This document shows, piece by piece, positions 31,364-61,129 of a stretch of DNA of 64,000 bases (position 1 is its first letter; each line of letters opens with the position of its first letter). The notes beneath the pieces are model-generated. The model had not been told where the DNA came from, did not search any database, and saw only the letters and a program-made list of their open reading frames with translations. Source of the stretch: Rhodoferax sp. (GTDB lineage Bacteria > Pseudomonadota > Gammaproteobacteria > Burkholderiales > Burkholderiaceae_C); contig JARLJH010000034.1 of NCBI GenBank assembly GCA_031291305.1, forward strand, positions 1 through 64,000, given 5' to 3'. The translations under genes were made by a program, and so were the position numbers.

Positions 31364-32845
31364 ATGTCTGCCTCACCCCTCTCACTGCTTAAAGACCCCA
31401 GCCTGCTGAAAACCGATGCACTGATCAACGGTGAATGGGTGCCAGGCCGCAGCCGCTTTGCCGTGACCGACCCGGCTACCGGCGCTCATCTGGCCGATGT
31501 GGCCAATCTGGGTGCCGCCGATGCAGAGGCCGCCATCGCCGCTGCCAACGCTGCCTGGCCCGCATGGAGAGCCAAAACCGCCAAAGAGCGCAGCATCATC
31601 CTGCGCAAGTGGTACGACCTGATCATGGCCAACCAGGATGATCTGGGCCGCATCATGACCGCCGAGCAGGGCAAGCCATTGCCCGAAGCCAAGGGCGAAG
31701 TCGCCTACGGTGCCAGCTTTGTCGAGTGGTTTGCCGAAGAAGCCAAGCGTGTCAACGGAGAAACTCTGCCCCAGTTTGACAACAACCGCCGCCTGATGGT
31801 GCTCAAGCAACCGATTGGCGTGTGCGCCGCCATCACACCGTGGAACTTCCCCATTGCCATGATCACCCGCAAGGTGGCTCCGGCTCTGGCTGCAGGCTGC
31901 CCGGTGGTCATCAAACCGGCTGAACTCACCCCGCTGACTGCCCTGGCGGCGGCCGAGCTGGCGATTCGTGCTGGAATCCCCGCTGGGGTGCTCAACATGG
32001 TCACGGCCGATGCCGATAACTCGATTGCCGTGGGCAAAGCGATTTGTGCCAGCGACATCGTGCGCCACATCAGCTTCACCGGCTCCACCGAAGTGGGTCG
32101 CATCCTGATGGCCCAAAGTGCGCCGACCGTCAAGAAAATGTCGCTGGAGTTGGGCGGCAATGCGCCCTTCATCGTGTTTGACGATGCCGACATCGACAGC
32201 GCTGTGGAAGGTGCCTTCGCCAGCAAATACCGCAACGCGGGCCAAACCTGCGTCTGCTCCAACCGCCTGTACGTGCAGGCCGGGGTGTATGACGAGTTTG
32301 TGGCCAAGTTCGCCGCCAAGGTCAAGACCGCCAAGGTCGGCAATGGCTTTGATGCCGATATCAACCAAGGCCCGCTGATCGAAGAAGCCGCGCTGCAAAA
32401 AGTGCAGCGCCATGTGGACGATGCCGTGGCCAAGGGTGGCCGCGTGCTGGCCGGTGGCAAGCGCCTGCCGGGCCTGTTCTACGAGCCCACCGTGGTGGCC
32501 GATGCCACCGCCGACATGCTGTGCGCCCGTGAAGAAACCTTTGGCCCGTTTGCCCCGGTATTCAAGTTTGAGACCGAAGCCGAAGCCATTTTTGCCGCCA
32601 ACAACACCGAGTTTGGCTTGGCCAGCTACTTCTACAGCCGGGATATTGGCCGCATCTGGCGTGTGAGTGAAGCGCTGGAATACGGCATGGTGGGAGTCAA
32701 TGTGGGTATTCTGGCCACCGAGCACGTGCCGTTTGGCGGTGTCAAACAGTCCGGCCTGGGTCGTGAAGGCTCGCACTATGGCATGGATGACTATGTGGAA
32801 ATCAAGTACGTGTGCATGGGCGATATTGGGGTGATCTCGGTTTAG
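31364..32845 (+). CDS. gabD: succinate-semialdehyde dehydrogenase (NADP+)
   Basis: Aldehyde dehydrogenase that oxidises succinate semialdehyde to succinate, 493 aa. The catalytic Cys lies in NAGQTCVCSNRLYVQ (about 292-306). The active-site Glu lies in LELGGNAPFIVFDDADID (about 259), and the cofactor region FTGSTEVGRIL is present. NAGQTCVCSNR and SREGSHYGMDDYVEIKY are features of GabD. It completes the GABA route begun by gabT, so the locus turns GABA into succinate. ATG 31364 has AGGAG seven bases upstream. Confidence 0.94.
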   Translation: MSASPLSLLKDPSLLKTDALINGEWVPGRSRFAVTDPATGAHLADVANLGAADAEAAIAAANAAWPAWRAKTAKERSIILRKWYDLIMANQDDLGRIMTAEQGKPLPEAKGEVAYGASFVEWFAEEAKRVNGETLPQFDNNRRLMVLKQPIGVCAAITPWNFPIAMITRKVAPALAAGCPVVIKPAELTPLTALAAAELAIRAGIPAGVLNMVTADADNSIAVGKAICASDIVRHISFTGSTEVGRILMAQSAPTVKKMSLELGGNAPFIVFDDADIDSAVEGAFASKYRNAGQTCVCSNRLYVQAGVYDEFVAKFAAKVKTAKVGNGFDADINQGPLIEEAALQKVQRHVDDAVAKGGRVLAGGKRLPGLFYEPTVVADATADMLCAREETFGPFAPVFKFETEAEAIFAANNTEFGLASYFYSRDIGRIWRVSEALEYGMVGVNVGILATEHVPFGGVKQSGLGREGSHYGMDDYVEIKYVCMGDIGVISV

Positions 32846-32902
32846 GTGCTATTTGTAACGGTTTGAAGTGCGGGTAAACCCCAGTATTGCGGATGGGACC
32901 AG

Positions 32903-33236: not shown

Positions 33237-34217
33237 TCAACCGCGTTTCTTACCGCTGGCGGGCAGCTTGGCCGCCGCTGCTGCGCTCAAACTGTCCTGC
33301 AGCCTAACCACGTCCTGCTCCAGCGCGTGAATCCGGGCGTCACGCTGCACAATCTCCTGTCCCGCGTCCTTGAAGCGCGCCTCCGCCACCTCCGCGTTCA
33401 TGTGTTCAGCGCTGGCCATCTCGTTGGCGGACGCCAGTTGCTCGGCAAGGAGCGACGCCCGGCCCGCGTGGGCGGCGCCGACGGTGATCGCCTCATCAAG
33501 TCGCGCCTGCAGGTTGTTCTTTTCGGTCCTCAGTGTCGCCAGCGCCTCGCGGTGGTCGCCAAGATGCCCCCGCACCTGCGCCAGCTCCCGTTCTAGGGCG
33601 GCGGCGCGGACGTCGGCCGCCTGCTTGTCGCTCTCCCGCCGTTCGGCCGCTTTGTCCTGGAAGTGCTCGAACTGCTGCCGGGCGTGGGCCAGTTGGTCGG
33701 CCAGCAATTTGATTTCGGCCGCGCGGTCGGCCAGGCGCTCGGTCAGTCCAGCCTGCTCGGCCTGCAGTGCCGCCATCGTCACGGCGGCGTGCTGCTGCTC
33801 CTCGCGCTCGTGCCTCAGCGCTGCCTTCATCTGGGCCAGTTCGGTGGCCTGGGCGTCGCGCTCGGCACGCATCTGGCGTGCGGCGGTGCGTTCCGCCTCC
33901 AACTTCTGGGCGCTCGCCTGGCGAGCCTGCTCGTGCTCGGCGCGCAACTGCTCGACCTGGACCTGGGCGGCGGCCTCCAGCCGCTGGTGCACGGCCTGCA
34001 CCGCTTCCAGCAAATCTGTCGGCAGTCCGGTGCTGGCGGCCACGGCCTGGCTCTCGTGCTCGGCTTTCCAGCGTTTGAGCAACGGTGCGATGGTGCTCTT
34101 GCTGCCGGTGTCGCCCAGCGCGGCGCGAACGGTGTCCACGGTGGGGTTGGTGCCGGCGGCGGCCAGCGCGGTGGCAGCCTTGGCCACATGGGAATAGAGA
34201 ATGCCGGCGCGTGCCAT
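33237..34217 (-). CDS. tnpT: TnpT-like cointegrate-resolution protein (KfrA-type N-terminus, coiled coil)
   Basis: 326 aa. Residues 1 to about 60 resemble the KfrA_N DNA-binding domain (GTNPTVDTVRAALGDTGSKS). From about 60 to 320 the protein is one long Ala/Gln/Glu/Arg-rich coiled coil. In Tn4651-type Tn3 transposons TnpT is a DNA-binding coiled-coil protein of about this size, encoded divergently from the tyrosine recombinase TnpS with a recombination site between them. That exact arrangement exists here (tnpS at 34409, 191 bp gap with core repeat at 34258-34279). A plasmid KfrA-like protein is the alternative. High GC and long coiled coil make the length hard to compare. Confidence 0.8.
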   Translation of the reverse strand: MARAGILYSHVAKAATALAAAGTNPTVDTVRAALGDTGSKSTIAPLLKRWKAEHESQAVAASTGLPTDLLEAVQAVHQRLEAAAQVQVEQLRAEHEQARQASAQKLEAERTAARQMRAERDAQATELAQMKAALRHEREEQQHAAVTMAALQAEQAGLTERLADRAAEIKLLADQLAHARQQFEHFQDKAAERRESDKQAADVRAAALERELAQVRGHLGDHREALATLRTEKNNLQARLDEAITVGAAHAGRASLLAEQLASANEMASAEHMNAEVAEARFKDAGQEIVQRDARIHALEQDVVRLQDSLSAAAAAKLPASGKKRG

Positions 34218-34408: not shown

Positions 34409-35428
34409 ATGGTCACCATGCCCGCATCATCCGAGTCCGAACATACAGCCGCCACCGCGTCGCCGCTGGATAGTTGTACCGCAGTTACGCCGCTGGAGGA
34501 CCACACGCTGACCGAGCGGCACCGAGCTTTTCTCTCCGCCGCTACCTCCGACAACACTCGCCAGGCGTACCGCTCCGCGATCAAACACTTCCTGGACTGG
34601 GGCGGGCTGCTGCCGGCCGACGCGGCGGCGGTCATCCGCTACCTGGTACATTTCGCGGACAGTCTCAGTCCGCGCACACTGGCCTTGCGCCTCACTGCAC
34701 TCTCTCAGTGGCATGTCTATCAAGGCTTTACCGATCCCGCTGCAGGCGCCACCGTGCGCAAGACCCTGACCGGGATCGCGCGCACCCATGGACGGCCCAA
34801 GAAAAAGGCGAAGGCGCTGCCGATCGAAGATCTGGAACTGATCGTGGCGGCGCTTTCTAGCCTGGGCACGCTGAAAGCGAAGCGCGACAACGCGCTGCTG
34901 CAGGTGGGGTTTTTCGGCGGATTTAGGCGAGGCGAGCTGGCCGGCATAGCCGTTGAGCACTTGGCCTGGGATGCGCATGGCGTGGTCATCACGCTGCCGC
35001 GCTCAAAGACGGACCAGACCGGGGAAGGCATCATCAAGGCGATTCCGTACAGCGAGGGGCCCTGCTGCCCGGCCACGGTGCTGCGAGGATGGCTCGGCGC
35101 AGCCCGCGTGGCCAGCGGCCCGGTGTTCCGTGCGATCACCAAGTGGGGGGTGGTGGGCACCGATTCGCTGCACCCGGCCAGCGTCAACGCCATCCTGGCA
35201 GACGCCGCGCAACTCGCCAAGCTGGATTATGTGCCGGAGCTGTCAAGCCACAGCCTGCGACGAGGCATGGCCACCAGCGCACACCGGGCCGGCGCCGAGT
35301 TCCGTGATATCAAGAAGCAAGGTGGCTGGCGCCACGACGGCACGGTGCAGGGCTATATCGAAGAAGCAGAGATGTTTTCAGCCAATGCTGCGGGCAGTCT
35401 GCTCCATTCGCGCACCAAGCCGGGCTGA
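34409..35428 (+). CDS. tnpS: tyrosine recombinase, TnpS-like
   Basis: Site-specific recombinase, 339 aa, that would resolve cointegrates formed by Tn3-type transposition. The SAM-like N-terminal DNA-binding domain covers about 30-130. The catalytic residues are R174 (RRGEL), K200 (RSKTD), H281 and R284 (SSHSLRRG), W307 (GGWRHD) and the nucleophile Y316 (GYIEEAE). It is divergent from the coiled-coil tnpT gene with a candidate crossover site between them, so I call it TnpS and not a phage integrase. No excisionase lies nearby, and an attachment site at a tRNA is not seen at this side. The start is ATG 34409 or 34418. Confidence 0.85.
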   Translation: MVTMPASSESEHTAATASPLDSCTAVTPLEDHTLTERHRAFLSAATSDNTRQAYRSAIKHFLDWGGLLPADAAAVIRYLVHFADSLSPRTLALRLTALSQWHVYQGFTDPAAGATVRKTLTGIARTHGRPKKKAKALPIEDLELIVAALSSLGTLKAKRDNALLQVGFFGGFRRGELAGIAVEHLAWDAHGVVITLPRSKTDQTGEGIIKAIPYSEGPCCPATVLRGWLGAARVASGPVFRAITKWGVVGTDSLHPASVNAILADAAQLAKLDYVPELSSHSLRRGMATSAHRAGAEFRDIKKQGGWRHDGTVQGYIEEAEMFSANAAGSLLHSRTKPG

Positions 35429-39534: not shown

Positions 39535-40527
39535 ATGAAATACATCAAACTCGGAAATACTGGTCTCGATGTTTCGAAAATCTGCCTCGGGATGATGAGC
39601 TTCGGCAAACCTGGGAGCGAACACGGCCTCTTCCCTTGGGCGCGCGATTTTGAGGATGCCAAACCAATCTTCAAAAAAGCGATAGAGCTGGGCATTAACT
39701 ACTTTGACACCGCCAACGTGTATCAGCTTGGCACCAGCGAAGATGTGACTGGCAAACTCATCCGGGAATTTAATCTTGACCGGGACGACATTGTCGTGGC
39801 AACCAAAGTGCGCATGGAGATGCGCCAAGGCAAGCCGAATGGCAGTGGCCTTTCGCGCAAGGCCATTCTCAGCGAAATCGACAAGAGTCTGAAGCGTCTG
39901 GGCCTGGATTACGTGGACCTGTACACGATCCACCGGCTCGACCCGCTGACGCCCATGGAGGAAATTATGGAGGCACTTCACGATGTTGTGAAGAGCGGCA
40001 AGGTACGATACATCGGCGCTTCGACTATGTATGCGTGGCAGTTCGAACGCATGCAAAACATCGCGAAAAAAAATGGTTGGACGAAGTTCGTCGCCATGCA
40101 GAACCATTACAACCTTATCTATCGGGAAGAAGAACGCGAGATGATTCCGCTCTGTGAGGATCGCAAGATTGCGCTGACACCATGGAGCCCACTTGCAGGC
40201 GGTCGCTTGGCGCATCCGTGGGGAACTTCCACACCCCGCGTCCAGATCGACGAAGTGTCCAAGTGGGTTTGGGACGGCACCAACCCAATGGACAAGGTAG
40301 TCATCGACAACGTTCAAGAAATGGCGCATGCACGCGGTATTTCGATGGCTCAAATGTCTCTGGCTTGGATGCTCAGCAAGCCATACATCACCGCACCGAT
40401 CGTTGGAACAACCGCCATCAAGCATGTGGAAGAAGCTGTGGCGGCCCTTGATATTCAACTCTCCAGCGATGAAATAGTGGCGCTCGAAAAGCCCTATGTC
40501 ACGCATCCTGTGCTGGGGATGATGTAA
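39535..40527 (+). CDS. aldo/keto reductase (block 1)
   Basis: NADPH-dependent carbonyl reductase of the (beta/alpha)8 AKR family, 330 aa. The catalytic tetrad is in DTANVYQLGTSE (Asp, Tyr), VVATKVRM (Lys) and TIHRLD (His). The cofactor pocket includes SPLAGGRLAH and VGTTAIKHVEEA. It resembles the YajO/IolS-type AKRs. It lies 30 bp after the MFS gene and its stop overlaps the next start by one base, so it belongs to the same operon. Substrate unknown. Confidence 0.92.
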   Translation: MKYIKLGNTGLDVSKICLGMMSFGKPGSEHGLFPWARDFEDAKPIFKKAIELGINYFDTANVYQLGTSEDVTGKLIREFNLDRDDIVVATKVRMEMRQGKPNGSGLSRKAILSEIDKSLKRLGLDYVDLYTIHRLDPLTPMEEIMEALHDVVKSGKVRYIGASTMYAWQFERMQNIAKKNGWTKFVAMQNHYNLIYREEEREMIPLCEDRKIALTPWSPLAGGRLAHPWGTSTPRVQIDEVSKWVWDGTNPMDKVVIDNVQEMAHARGISMAQMSLAWMLSKPYITAPIVGTTAIKHVEEAVAALDIQLSSDEIVALEKPYVTHPVLGMM

Positions 40528-41501
40528 TGCGGCCACATTGGAAGAAGCCGCTTGTTACGGCGATAATCGGCGGCATCATGCACCTCTCTGCTGGGGCTGA
40601 TCCACTGCCAGATGCAATCACGTTCCATGCCGATCAGGCATACCCTGAAAGTGTGGCATGGTCGCCGCGCCAAAATGCCTTTTTCGTCGGCTCCCTTCGT
40701 TTGGGGACCATTGGGATTGTTTCGCCTTCCGGCGGCTATCGGCAATTTGCTTCAGACAAATTGATGTTCGGTTCAGGTGGTATCAAGTACGACGCTAAAC
40801 GCAACTGGGTTTGGGCTGCACTCTGCGATATTGGGGTCTCGACGGCCAGCTCACCGCAGACACAGGGTAAGACTGCCGCCGTGATTGCTTTTGATGCGAA
40901 GTCTGGAAAGCGGAAGCGATATATCGATCTCGCGCCTCTCGTGCCAGGTGCTCACTGCGCCAATGATCTTGCGTTCGACGGCGCAGGCAACATCTACGTG
41001 ACCGACAGTTTTGCACCGGTCGTCTATGTGATCGATCAGAAGATGAAGGCGCGGGTATTGGTCAGCAGCGAGAAATTCGAAGGGCAAAACTTCAACCTAA
41101 ATGGTATCGCTTATCACGGTAGCGGATATCTGCTCGTCGGGAAGCACAATAGCGGCGATTTCTACAAAATAACGCTCAAACCAAGAGTCGAGGTCCAGAT
41201 CGTTGAATTGTCGATCAAGGTTCCCGGCGCCGACGGTATTGAATTGTTGGGCAAGACTTCGATGATCGTGGCCCAGAATCAAGGGCATGATCGCGCCATG
41301 CTGTTGACGAGCATCGACGATTGGAAGTCCGCCAAGGTTCAAGAGCTGGCTAAGAGCGTGGTATCTTTCCCTACGGCTGTGACAACGAGGGGAAAGGACA
41401 TCTACATGCTGAATAACCGTGTTGATACGCTCATCGATGCTTCGGCAAATAAGGTCAGCGATTACGTCCTGCAACGCTTGCCAGCGGTGAAGAACGAGTG
41501 A
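40527..41501 (+). CDS. exported SMP-30/gluconolactonase-like beta-propeller protein
   Basis: 324 aa. Residues 1 to about 24 form a signal peptide (basic start, VTAIIGGIMHLSAGA). The rest has repeated propeller strands, such as GGIKYDAKRNWVWAALCD, NDLAFDGAGNIYVTDSFAP and NLNGIAYHGSGYLLVGKHN, a pattern of six-bladed SMP-30/strictosidine-synthase-type proteins. Such folds often act as lactonases, but I see no complete catalytic metal set. The stop of the reductase gene overlaps its start by one base. It is probably periplasmic; function unassigned. Confidence 0.75.
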   Translation: MRPHWKKPLVTAIIGGIMHLSAGADPLPDAITFHADQAYPESVAWSPRQNAFFVGSLRLGTIGIVSPSGGYRQFASDKLMFGSGGIKYDAKRNWVWAALCDIGVSTASSPQTQGKTAAVIAFDAKSGKRKRYIDLAPLVPGAHCANDLAFDGAGNIYVTDSFAPVVYVIDQKMKARVLVSSEKFEGQNFNLNGIAYHGSGYLLVGKHNSGDFYKITLKPRVEVQIVELSIKVPGADGIELLGKTSMIVAQNQGHDRAMLLTSIDDWKSAKVQELAKSVVSFPTAVTTRGKDIYMLNNRVDTLIDASANKVSDYVLQRLPAVKNE

Positions 41502-56930: not shown

Positions 56931-57185
56931 CTATTCATAGTTTTCGCTGACCTCTGGTCGATGATTGTGGATGCCATTCGCAGCACGGGTGCTCGCCGGA
57001 AGAAGGGCCGTTCTCCCGACCCGAGATAACTGTCCAGTAATCCCCGCTCTCGCATCGGTCCACCTGGAACGTGGCCCATAGCCCCGGCTCAGCCTATGGC
57101 GCGGAATTATGTATAGGTCTGCATGCGCCTTAACAAGAAGGCTTCCTCCAAACTCTCCATAGTTGAGGTCTGTGCATAGGGGTCG
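56841..57185. repeat. 345-bp segment bounded by 28-bp inverted repeats
   Basis: The arms 56841-56868 and 57158-57185 are inverted copies matching at 26 of 28 bases (ATAGTTGAG..CTGTGCATAGGGGTCG). The left arm is preceded by a palindrome starting GGGTCGCTATG. The segment cuts through the 3' part of the Ntn-hydrolase frame. It may be a miniature inverted-repeat element or an invertible segment; no transposase is inside it. Confidence 0.55.
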
Positions 57186-57800
57186 GGTCCTGCTCATGGT
57201 AACCTTGGCAAACGCCTCGTCAAACCATGCCAATCGCTGCTCCAAGTCCAACCCTTCGTACAGCCGCTTCACGAAACTATTGATTTCCTCCAGTCCAACG
57301 GCTTTTTCAAAGTTACTGCTACCGCTACCAACGTGAAGCAGTATGGGACTGGCGTTCGCCCGTCTGGCATAGAGCTGCACAGCGTGGGTAAACGGTGTGA
57401 ACAGGTACAGGCTGGAGAAAAATGCGCCTTTGTCCGGGTCAAAAAATGTCACGATGGGCTGGTTTTCCATCACCGCCTCGTTATTAAGCATCCGGTCTCG
57501 GGCGTCGAAGTCGAATGCCAAATGAACAAAATCACTGACGCACTCCAGCGCGGTCTGGCCATCGCTCACCTCGGAAAAAGCTCCTAGATAGCCATGGTCA
57601 CCAACGGTGCCCGCAATCCCAACGGCCTGATCAGCGTTCTTGCTCAAGTAGATTTTCTGAACACCGTCGATCCCGGTGTTGCCCGACGTAGTGATGGAGA
57701 TGCCGGCGGCGAAGATGCTGACCGGCCCATCTGACTTCCCCCTGCGGTCGGCCGCGAGCAAAGAATAGTCCTTGTGCAAGATGTTGAGTACAAAGGTCAT
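56931..57800 (-). CDS. proteasome-type Ntn-hydrolase protein (3' end displaced)
   Basis: N-terminal-nucleophile hydrolase related to proteasome beta/HslV proteins. From ATG 57800 the second residue is Thr (MTFVLNILHKDYSLLAADRR); after Met removal it would be Thr1 with Asp17 at the usual place. Lys48 in VQKIYLSK matches the proteasome Lys33 with an insertion, and GSGSS near residue 182 matches Ser129. VGIAGTVGD is the usual beta-strand pattern. The frame runs on to 56931 through the inverted-repeat segment (57185 leftward), so residues beyond about 205 are probably not native. No ATPase partner lies beside it. A GTG at 57938 lies inside a repeat and is unlikely as start. Confidence 0.72.
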   Translation of the reverse strand: MTFVLNILHKDYSLLAADRRGKSDGPVSIFAAGISITTSGNTGIDGVQKIYLSKNADQAVGIAGTVGDHGYLGAFSEVSDGQTALECVSDFVHLAFDFDARDRMLNNEAVMENQPIVTFFDPDKGAFFSSLYLFTPFTHAVQLYARRANASPILLHVGSGSSNFEKAVGLEEINSFVKRLYEGLDLEQRLAWFDEAFAKVTMSRTRPLCTDLNYGEFGGSLLVKAHADLYIIPRHRLSRGYGPRSRWTDARAGITGQLSRVGRTALLPASTRAANGIHNHRPEVSENYE

Positions 57801-57920: not shown

Positions 57921-58047
57921 AACCGCTACAATTTGCACGAAAATCAGTAACTCTCAAAATTTAGGTACTTCATAAGTCATTGATTTATATAGGTTGTTAT
58001 TTTGAAACCGCTACAATTTGCACGTAAATCAGTAACGCTTAAATTTT
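57921..58047. repeat. two direct copies of a Tn3-end-like repeat
   Basis: Copies 57921-57963 and 58006-58047 share ACCGCTACAATTTGCACG, then (A/T)AAATCAGTAAC. The second abuts the tnpA stop. A related piece, GCGACAATTTGCACGAAAA, lies in the same orientation upstream of tnpA (61092-61129). Direct, not inverted, orientation is unusual for ends of one Tn3 element. Confidence 0.55.
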
Positions 58048-60997
58048 AAGCACCACCGCTAGCTCTGCGTTTTTGGGGCGGCTGATCCAGCAAAGCATCG
58101 GCATATCGCTCCACGCCAAAGGCCATCAGCCCGCGGAAATTGATGTGCTCGAAATGTACCGGCCCCATGCGACGCAGCCAGGCGTCTTCAATCGAGTGCT
58201 TTTCCTTGCGCCAGCGATCGACGACTTGCTGCATCTTCATGGTGTTCCAGGCAATGACCAGATTGGTCAAGAGCGCGTGTGAACCGGAAACCGCCCGGAT
58301 TTCGTCCCGCCGGCGTCCTCGCTCCGCAGCCAGCCGCCCGAAATAGATAGCCCGCTGCAGCTGGTGGACCGACTCTCCGCGGTTCAACAGGGTGTGCATT
58401 TCACGCCGAAATTCAGGATTACTGAAGTAGTCACACAAAAACAATGTCCGCAACAGGCGCCCCAGCTGGTCCGCTGCCTTGTGCATGGGATCACCCTGAG
58501 CTGAGGAGCCCATCTTCTCCAGCGCTTCCTTGGGTGTCAACCGGCCGCTACGAATGGAGGCAATCAGTCGCAACAGCTCATCCCACCCTTTGTGAATCGC
58601 GCGCTCCGACACATTGGTGAGCGCGATGCGTTCCAGGTTCTCTGGCAGTTTGACGGATCGGGGCAGGTAAAGCCGACGCTCTGAAAGATCCCGCATCTGG
58701 GGACACAAATCAAACCCCAGGAACTTGCTCATAGTCATCGCAACAAAGGTATACCCGTGGGTATCAACGGCCAACATGGACAGACGCATGTTTTCATCGG
58801 TCTGTGCCGCGTTGTATTCCTCAACACCACTTACGGCCACGGACCCTTGCCGTTCGTTGTGGACGATAGGCTCGTCATGGGCAACTCCGTACACATCCAG
58901 GACGTGGGTGTAGAGACCAATCGCTCGGGTGCGACGCCGTGGATCGGTTCTGGAGTTGTAGAGGTGCCGGGAAGCATCCAGCGCCATCATGTCCGAAGAC
59001 GCCTTGGTGCCAGAGCCCCAATTGGCCGTGATGGAGTGCTGGCGCTGGAACTCCACCACACGATCGTTAGCACGGCGCAGGCGCCCATGGGCTTCCAGGG
59101 AACGCATCGCAGCAGAAATATGGGCGACCTCGACACCAGGAATCATCGCGGCCACGCCCTTGGCATCGTTCTCCGTACCGTGGGCCAATAGCGCCGCGTA
59201 GCAGGAGACCAGCTCCTGGGTGGACTTAGCGCGCCGCCCCAACAGAACTTCGCTGAATCCGGTTGCGGCGTCCATTTCGACAATGATGTCGCCGATCTGA
59301 ACCTCCCCGATACTGGCAAACATCATGTTTCGGCTCGCGTCAATAGCCTTGTCTTGTGCCAACGCCTCTATCTAGGGCAAATGCACAAGGCCACTGTCGT
59401 CAATGCTGACTTCACCAGCCTCGACTGATTCCGATAGGGCTTGCAGACCTGCCTCCAGGTGGGCGTACAGCCGGGTGAGGAATTTTTCTGGATCCGCATT
59501 CAGGCTCAAAGCGCTGATCAAGCGCAACCGGTCTTTCTTCCATTGCGCCGGTGGGATGAGCAAGTCCTCACGGTTTCGGTAATCCCAGCTGTGATCCACC
59601 CAAAGCCGGGAACTGCGAAAACCATGACGCACTGCCATCATGGTGGCCGCCTTCAATGCTGCGAACGCTTTGCTCCGATCCTTGACGTTGAGCATTTCAT
59701 GCCAGACTGGATCGACAATGCTCACATCAAAGTCAGCTGGTAGCTCCTTAATACCTTTGGCATCCAGCTCCCGGAGTGCCATCACCTGTTTGAGCGGCCG
59801 TTGCGCAGCATCACCCTTGATCTCCAGATCAGAGAAGACATTCAGCAGGGACGTCACCTTCGTGGTGTCGTCTATCAGAGACTGGCGAACCAGGGCGGAG
59901 TGCCCAATTGCTGCAATGGGCTCATCGTTGGGAATGAGCTTTTTGAGGGCTTCGATCTTTTCGTCAGACGTGCTTCCTTCTGCGTGGATGATCAATCGCA
60001 TTTCATCCCGCTGCTGCCGGTATTCGACAGCGGTACGTGCCTGCTTGCTAAGAACACGCCCCGATGCATGCCGATACAAATCATTGACACGGCGCCCGGT
60101 CAAATACATAAGGGTGTCGGTGAGATCCAACAGGGTGACTCGCAAGAAGCAGATGACCTCCAACATCTGGGTGTCATCGCTTAGGCGCCGGGTGTCAAAA
60201 GGCGGCCGGTTGGCTACGGCTTGGGCATAGGCGCGCATTCGTGCGGTGGAGATGTGACTCAAAGGCCACTTATCGACTTCAAGCGTCTTGAGATAGGTGA
60301 TCTTTTCTGAGACTTCCGACAGCGTGGTCGGGCTGTGTTTACCTGGTGGAGTCTTGAGCCATTCCAGCATGGTGCCGCCCGTGCGCCCTCGGCGTGGTGA
60401 AAACACTGCGGAAACCATGTTCTTGCGCACCGAAGCAGGAATTTCCTTCTTGATTCCTGCCATGGCCAAGGCCTCTGTGGAGGCAAAAGATTCGCGGGCG
60501 AGATCGCGCAAAACCCGGTCTGAAGGGAGAAGATAACGGCGATCAAATAGCCATCGCTCAGCAGCCTGAACCAAGTCATCCACAGAAACTGCCGTATTGC
60601 TCAGCTCGGCCAACGCTATTGCTAACTCAGCCAAAACAGCGTCGTCGGCATCGCTTATTCCTGCGGTATCACGGGCCCATTTTTGATGGTCATAGAGAGT
60701 TGCGCGGCGCTCATAGATGGTCTTGAGAGAGGCTATCGCTGTTTCGCCCAAGACTAGGGAATGACACAAAGATCTGAGTAGGCTGCGCGGGAGATAGGTC
60801 GCTCGGTCAAGAACTCGACCGGTGGCACGTAGTACAACGAGCTGAACTGCAGCACCAAGCCTGCGGTCTGTCCGAAAGCGTTCGCGGATTGCCGCGATGT
60901 CCCCAGAACTCAGCTTAAAAGACTGCTCGACATCAAAGTCTGAAAGTGACTTTGGAAGCTCCTTGGAGCCGACGAATCGCAAATGAAATCCGGCCAA
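58046..60997 (-). pseudogene. tnpA: Tn3-family transposase interrupted by one amber codon
   Basis: DDE transposase of Tn3 type, about 980 codons in all. The N-terminal part (60997 to 59375, 540 codons) ends GLVHLP, then TAG (59372-59374); the same frame continues at once (IEALAQDKAID) to the stop at 58046, giving the C-terminal catalytic part. That part contains ANWGSGTKASSDMMALDASR (first Asp) and later HNERQGSVAVSGVE. The frame before and after the TAG is intact, so a single nonsense change, and not a frameshift, splits the gene. Unless the codon is read through, the element cannot transpose on its own. It lacks an adjacent resolvase; tnpS/tnpT lie at the other end of the island. Confidence 0.9.
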
Positions 60998-61091: not shown

Positions 61092-61129
61092 GAAAGCGCG
61101 ACAATTTGCACGAAAACCTAGATCACCCC
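61092..61129 (-). repeat. candidate Tn3 terminal inverted repeat (right end)
   Basis: On the minus strand the 38 bases begin GGGGTGATCTAGGTTTTCG and run inward towards tnpA. GGGG at the outer tip and a length near 38 bp are typical of Tn3 ends. The outer tip is 18 bp from the -10 box (TATAAT, 61147-61152) of tRNA-Gly. The matching left end has not been found with certainty. Confidence 0.5.

Follow-up and report, generated by a model that had tools for sequence, protein, structure and literature searches.

A predicted proteasome-like hydrolase gene as passenger of a Tn3-family transposon, with a truncated copy in Rhodoferax sp.

The stretch of DNA analyzed here, hereafter the window, comprises 64,000 nucleotides of a Rhodoferax sp. 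genome (GenBank assembly GCA_031291305.1, contig JARLJH010000034.1). On its minus strand an open reading frame beginning at ATG 57800 encodes a protein with the N-terminus M-T-F-V-L-N-I-L-H-K-D, and a Tn3-family transposase gene, tnpA, lies directly upstream (table 1). A reading of the bare sequence (the original prediction) had taken this frame for a mobile, ATPase-free proteasome-type Ntn hydrolase adjoining a Tn3 transposase, and the sequence features that it named are present: the M-T start, an Asp and a Lys at places 17 and 48 counted from that Thr (residues 18 and 49), the stretch VGIAGTVGD downstream of Lys49 and a GSGS segment at residues 158–161. The gene end, which it had placed at 56931, proved to lie elsewhere.

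Table 1. Features of the hydrolase gene and of the surrounding element, in positions of the window
Feature	Positions	Strand	Basis or remark
Proteasome-like Ntn-hydrolase gene, native part, codons 1–201 of 241	57198..57800	−	90–94% identity to intact 241-aa relatives
Foreign 3′ end of the frame (88 codons plus stop), brought in by a rearrangement	56931..57197	−	match to relatives ends at ~codon 201
Codon for Thr2, candidate nucleophile (Thr1 once Met is off)	57795..57797	−	invariant in 6/6 rows
Codon for Asp18, proteasome Asp17 place	57747..57749	−	invariant in 6/6 rows
Codon for Lys49, proteasome Lys33 place after ~15-residue insert	57654..57656	−	invariant in 6/6 rows; assigned by motif
Codon for Ser161 of GSGS, proteasome Ser129 place	57318..57320	−	invariant in 6/6 rows; assigned by motif
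Tn3-family transposase gene tnpA, 983 codons, in-frame TAG at codon 542 (59374–59372)	58046..60997	−	relative in L002: DDE_Tnp_Tn3 2.3e-106, DUF4158 3.6e-23
First of two ~47-nt direct repeats, overlapping the last tnpA bases	58006..58053	−	85-bp spacing in window, L002, L003 and L007
Second of two ~47-nt direct repeats, 85 bp apart	57921..57968	−	in window, L002, L003 and L007
Terminal inverted repeat beside tnpA, outer 33 nt GGGGTGATCTAGG...	61097..61129	−	pattern scan
Terminal inverted repeat at far end of element, outer 33 nt GGGGTGATCTCGG...	32828..32860	+	only other pattern copy in host genome
Tyrosine recombinase gene, probable cointegrate resolvase (tnpS-like)	34409..35428	+	Phage_integrase 7.5e-12
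KfrA_N-domain DNA-binding gene, divergent from recombinase, tnpT-like by place	33237..34217	−	KfrA_N 9.6e-18

Two relatives found by contig scan, one in a beta-proteobacterial metagenome-assembled genome (L002) and one in Curvibacter sp. CHRR-16 (L003), both encode an intact protein of 241 residues, which settles where the native gene ends. Residues 1–201 of the window protein are 94% and 90% identical to these, respectively, and the match stops at approximately codon 201 (57198), so that the window gene is truncated at its 3′ end and the remaining 88 codons of the frame are foreign. The truncation has removed the last ~40 residues, including the places that would match proteasome Asp166 and Ser169, and the window gene itself is probably nonfunctional. 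Two plasmids match 68–70 bp of the truncating sequence. A 37-bp inverted pair, 86% complementary (56841–56877/57149–57185), lies within the foreign sequence that replaces the 3′ end.

Terminal inverted repeats (TIRs) bound an element of ~28.3 kb in the window (32828–61129). With up to two mismatches allowed, the TIR pattern occurs in the host genome (4,984,719 bases in 69 contigs) only at 32828 (+) and 61129 (−), and the reversed control pattern gave 0 matches. Matching 5-bp flanks were not found at the two ends of the window element (outer bases ATATT and TGAAG), a difference indicating that this copy is rearranged or old. From the premature stop in tnpA we infer that the element is probably immobile on its own, and the window copy of the hydrolase gene is a decaying remnant in a transposon with a broken transposase. 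At their core, the two direct repeats are similar to the inner portion of the TIR, in the orientation that it has at the tnpA-side end. The ten cargo open reading frames scanned encode a LysR regulator, a short-chain dehydrogenase, two NAD(P)-binding proteins, a zinc alcohol dehydrogenase, an aldo/keto reductase, two MFS transporters, one Na/H transporter and one matchless product. A cargo frame of 324 residues at 40527–41501 has no Pfam match at 1e-5.

The KfrA_N gene and divergent tyrosine recombinase of the window are arranged like tnpT and tnpS in Tn4651-type elements, as far as these are described in the available text of PMC7157771 and PMC4619425. TnpT is given there as having no evident relatives (PMC7157771), and the KfrA_N gene is therefore called tnpT-like by its place only. 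A gene similar by eye to the window recombinase lies near the same end in Curvibacter (L063 11130–12086), where a KfrA_N gene and the recombinase are ~30 kb apart.

The Curvibacter copy is carried by a complete Tn3-family transposon of ~43.3 kb. Its left TIR lies at 268816 and its inverted right TIR at 312135 of the contig; these are inverted GGGG ends, and GTGTC stands directly outside both. The intact hydrolase gene is inside, directly downstream of tnpA. The Curvibacter unit thus combines GGGG inverted ends, a 5-bp target duplication and a DDE_Tnp_Tn3 transposase, whereas the window copy lacks the duplication. The mobility that had been claimed for the gene is supported by this transposon and by copies in phages (below). 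A GGGGTNATCTAGG... terminal repeat, a tnpA of 983 codons and then two ~47-nt repeats are common to the window, L002, L003 and a plasmid of Comamonadaceae bacterium OS-4 (L007), and the order TIR, tnpA, two repeats, hydrolase gene is kept in the first three. On the OS-4 plasmid, where the tnpA copy is annotated as IS882, the hydrolase gene is absent after the repeats despite the similar tnpA. The two repeats between tnpA and the hydrolase gene are possible TnpA-binding or immunity sites. A right-hand TIR near the gene was sought in the DNA scanned of L002 and L003 and not seen, the actual end being ~40 kb away in Curvibacter; a candidate at L003 11218 (−), with four mismatches and without GGGG, was taken as a chance match. 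Two overlapping genes of 108 and 445 residues in the Curvibacter transposon (L003 7874–9534) have no Pfam or PADLOC match at 0.01.

Tn3-family transposons with TnpS and TnpT (Tn4651 type) and IS882 share with these elements the GGGG inverted ends, tnpA, a tyrosine recombinase and variable cargo; a cargo gene of the hydrolase kind was not found for them in the literature searched (available text of PMC7157771 and PMC4619425). The literature search, which left most subscription papers outside its range, likewise returned no account of a proteasome-like protein on a Tn3 transposon, no Ntn hydrolase as a Tn3-family passenger gene among the matches listed, and no link of Ntn-hydrolase or proteasome-like proteins to antiphage defense.

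Purifying selection acts on the hydrolase gene: L002 and L003, compared over 241 codons, give a Ka/Ks of 0.125 (range 0.115–0.158 overall). The original prediction had made its case depend on the conservation of Thr2, Asp18 and Lys49 among homologues. These residues, together with Gly64 and Ser161, are invariant in all six rows of alignment A5, in which the other rows are 30–46% identical to the first. (Alignments A4–A6 leave out L006, which is truncated, and L012, which is the same protein as L013; A6 also leaves out L013.) Thr directly follows the start codon in every row, the start being GTG in L013 and L059. The places of proteasome Asp17, Lys33 and oxyanion Gly47 are thereby filled by Asp18, Lys49 and Gly64, the Lys and Gly being assigned by motif. 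Near the C-terminus, Asp204 is found in four of the five full-length rows (L010 has Ala204) and Ser or Cys207 in all five (Cys in three). The pattern S-x-x-D-x-G-(S/C) formed there resembles the proteasome Asp166/Ser169 stretch, and Ser161, Asp204 and Ser/Cys207 may correspond to proteasome Ser129, Asp166 and Ser169. Conserved in two other genomes and keeping its putative catalytic positions at 30–46% identity, the gene is more than a chance open reading frame.

Family and sequence searches did not place the protein among proteasomes. The window protein has no match in Pfam or NCBIfam at E ≤ 1, and neither it nor the relatives tested gave anything above cut-off in Pfam, NCBIfam or PADLOC; the cut-off of the proteasome family PF00227 was not reached, with no Pfam match for P0001, P0002, P0003 or L013 and two sub-cut-off matches for P0004, both to other families. 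The best PHROGs match was an uncharacterized family (E 0.0054). Against PDB sequences, phmmer named no proteasome (best E 0.067 and 0.16), and neither did profile A5 (best E 0.09) or profile A4, whose best match (E 0.00066, with no single stretch passing) was to designed armadillo repeats and comes from a short helical segment that recurs in the target sequence. Comparing profiles with those of HslV, Anbu and a BPH-like protein produced no signal; the HslV–Anbu positive control failed as well, and HslV–BPH and Anbu–BPH were weak (probability 3–11% in local mode), so this null result says little. Pairwise z scores to HslV (3 of 31 sequences) were 2.2–4.6 for L010, P0002 and P0003, with 4.6 for P0002, and 0.2–2.3 for the window protein, L059 and L013, against at most 2.1 for five unrelated proteins (the range over the divergent members is 0.2–2.7); among known relatives, HslV and the BPH-like protein gave 2.6–4.0 and HslV and Anbu at most 1.4. 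In the best HslV alignment the N-terminal register is another one and Thr does not fall on Thr. Scores over the N-terminus only, left out of our verdict, were 3.5–5.2 for P0002, 0.8–2.1 for the window protein and at most 1.4 for the unrelated proteins. Scores to two of six Anbu sequences were −0.5 to 1.7, in a comparison where HslV–Anbu also scores near zero.

The AlphaFold models represent two relatives, L002 and L010, rather than the window protein itself; their mean pLDDT values are 36.0 and 39.9. Among the 50 Foldseek matches to the PDB listed for model 1, HslV ranks first, Anbu third and 24 are of proteasome type, all with E > 1; among the 50 listed for model 2, the top six are all 20S proteasome chains and 37 are proteasome (best E 0.051, probability 0.80). 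The PDB holds many proteasome chains, a few percent at our guess, so these proportions are an enrichment and not proof. In a viral fold library, the one named proteasome subunit among the 50 matches listed stands at rank 50. We take the strand and helix order of both models to fit a proteasome beta subunit plus a hairpin (27–31/34–38). The ~15 additional residues that had been noted before the Lys are real; in both models, low in confidence as these are, they take the form of this beta-hairpin. The predicted Ntn sandwich fared less clearly: the models of the two relatives point to the four-layer alpha-beta-beta-alpha arrangement, but at such pLDDT values it is suggested only. We consider a proteasome-like fold likely, and catalysis by Thr1 somewhat less so, if still the favored view.

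Among known systems, HslV shares the Thr1, Asp17, Lys and GSG places and a G-N-T-V...K-K stretch before the Lys strand. It differs in its length (~175 residues vs. 241 here), in having no counterpart to the insert of ~15 residues after the Asp, and in being matched by PF00227, which the transposon protein is not; no HslU was seen beside our gene, and the host has its own HslV. BPH has a like pattern (Thr1, Asp17, Lys37, Gly50, Ser139), with variable Asp–Lys spacing, and has neither a propeptide nor a known unfoldase, according to the available text of PMC5777263. The transposon protein is set apart from BPH by its extra insert and by carriage on mobile elements. A protein of another genome of the same order (L050, G406) starts M-T-T, is matched by PF00227 and looks like a BPH; it shows no clear sequence similarity to the transposon protein (z −0.4 to 2.3). 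Anbu loses its start Met and, like BPH, is described without propeptide or ATPase partner in the portions available of PMC5666114 and PMC5777263. The absence of a propeptide and of an ATPase partner, offered earlier as setting our protein apart, was seen here but is therefore not distinctive. Fuchs, Alva and Lupas (2021) described 22 further proteasome-like families, two of them phage-linked, with no co-occurring AAA+ partners in the text available (PMC8665760). Of these, the phage-borne PPH/AAH likewise occur in phages and hosts, PPH having ~140 residues, and GPH, DPH and RPC are also found in Proteobacteria with no known partner; the main text of that paper contains no word beginning "transpos." We regard our protein as a mobile variant within the proteasome-like proteins, of which the window copy is a remnant.

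The gene proved rare in the sets searched. In overlapping samples of genomes, it was found in 1/89 of the host genus (the host only), which is as expected from a recent acquisition, 2/399 of the host's family (host and Curvibacter), 3/399 of the order (host, G446 and G489), 1/369 of the class and 1/398 of the phylum (the host each time); both genomes available for the family of G446 carry it (2/2). The divergent copies lie on two phage contigs (L010, 46% identical, and L059, both from pattern scans of viral contigs) and in two genomes of the same order. Next to the G446 gene there is, by eye, an IS-type transposase, and the G489 gene lies 143 bases from the beginning of its contig. The last pattern matched four viral contigs, of which L060 and L061 were rejected as coincidental. 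The phage search gave no match for P0002, P0004 or the L059 protein, and the plasmid search none for P0001 or P0004 and one Pseudomonas aeruginosa fragment for P0002 and L013. The relative on that P. aeruginosa plasmid, 168 residues (L006 11887–12399), lies between insertion sequences; it is 37% identical to L013 over 130 residues, truncated, and without the Thr after Met or the insert.

Both phage copies lie near tail or lysis genes. The L010 gene is 635 bases from a contig end; it converges with a gene for an Rz-like spanin, and endolysin and tail protein genes are close by. The L059 gene follows tail genes on the same strand and adjoins an AbiGi-family gene (1122–1808; Pfam 9e-10, PADLOC 3.3e-12), with a Phd/ParE toxin–antitoxin pair further on (388–909). 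The AbiGi gene and the Phd/ParE pair form a small accessory island behind the tail genes. No HslU- or Mpa-type ATPase was seen by eye in the open reading frames of the window, L002, L003, L010, L013 and L059, a check in which Pfam was run on selected neighbors and in which L002 and L010 end ≤0.8 kb from the gene on one side.

Our best reading, at a probability of roughly 0.7, is that the gene encodes a rare, mobile, ATPase-free proteasome-like hydrolase carried by a Tn3-family transposon. It would be a passenger of an element whose tnpA is related to IS882 and whose cointegrates are probably resolved by the tyrosine recombinase. By analogy with BPH (PMC5777263) and Anbu (PMC5666114), as described in the text available, removal of Met1 would expose Thr2 as the nucleophile. 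Lys49 and Asp18 may then activate Thr2, with Gly64 lining the oxyanion hole and Ser161 assisting. Peculiar to this protein would be the insert that separates strand 2 from the Lys strand and probably folds as a beta-hairpin. Lacking a dedicated ATPase or unfoldase, the enzyme would be expected to be limited to small or unfolded chains or to a single specific partner. Of this reading, carriage by the transposon, conservation, purifying selection and the truncation in the window are shown, and the fold, the catalysis and the role are inferred.

That the protein is an unrelated alpha/beta protein, its M-T start, Asp18 and Lys49 resembling a proteasome by chance, would agree with the lack of any family or PDB sequence match to proteasomes for it or its relatives, with the low confidence of the models, and with a viral fold library that does not favor proteasomes. 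Such coincidence is unlikely, however, given five residues that do not vary across rows of 30–46% identity and the preponderance of proteasome chains (37/50) among the PDB matches listed for model 2. A proteasome-like fold need not mean a protease, and a connectase-like, monomeric and highly specific ligase or amidase using Thr1 would suit both the lack of a partner ATPase and the insert between the Asp17 and Lys33 places; connectase shows that members of the proteasome-like family can be ligases and monomers, in the available text of PMC8665760. The models draw helices where connectase lacks H1 and H2, albeit at low confidence, and we hold a ligase or amidase to be improbable.

A service to the transposon itself, such as control of the transposase or of target immunity through TnpA proteolysis, as Tn3-family toxin–antitoxin pairs are thought to provide, is suggested by the position of the gene, which in three genomes comes straight after tnpA and the two TIR-like repeats, and toxin–antitoxin pairs in Tn3 elements likewise adjoin the transposition genes (PMC7157771, in the text available). 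The OS-4 plasmid has a similar tnpA and the repeats without the gene, however, and the divergent relatives L010, L059 and L013 show no tnpA of this kind, by eye, in the DNA listed; these observations make such a service quite improbable. For the proteasome-like hydrolase that we prefer, the presence in mobile elements, beside tnpA or at the end of phage tail and lysis genes, argues that the protein would most likely serve the element or its host in an accessory capacity, for example in lysogenic conversion or with an antiphage function. The accessory-gene places and the abortive-infection neighbor make defense or superinfection exclusion the first candidate, which we put forward tentatively. 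It is equally speculative that the gene represents a new proteasome-like subfamily with its own active-site insert, residing mainly on transposons and phages and acting as an ATPase-free protease in conflicts between mobile elements (superinfection exclusion, defense or counterdefense).

Many bacterial relatives of the proteasome, and all phage-borne ones, are without a known role. Taken with the relatives at accessory sites of phages, a copy in a complete Tn3-family transposon would show that such enzymes are exchanged among mobile elements, and the gene offers a small, ATPase-free member for direct tests of assembly and specificity.
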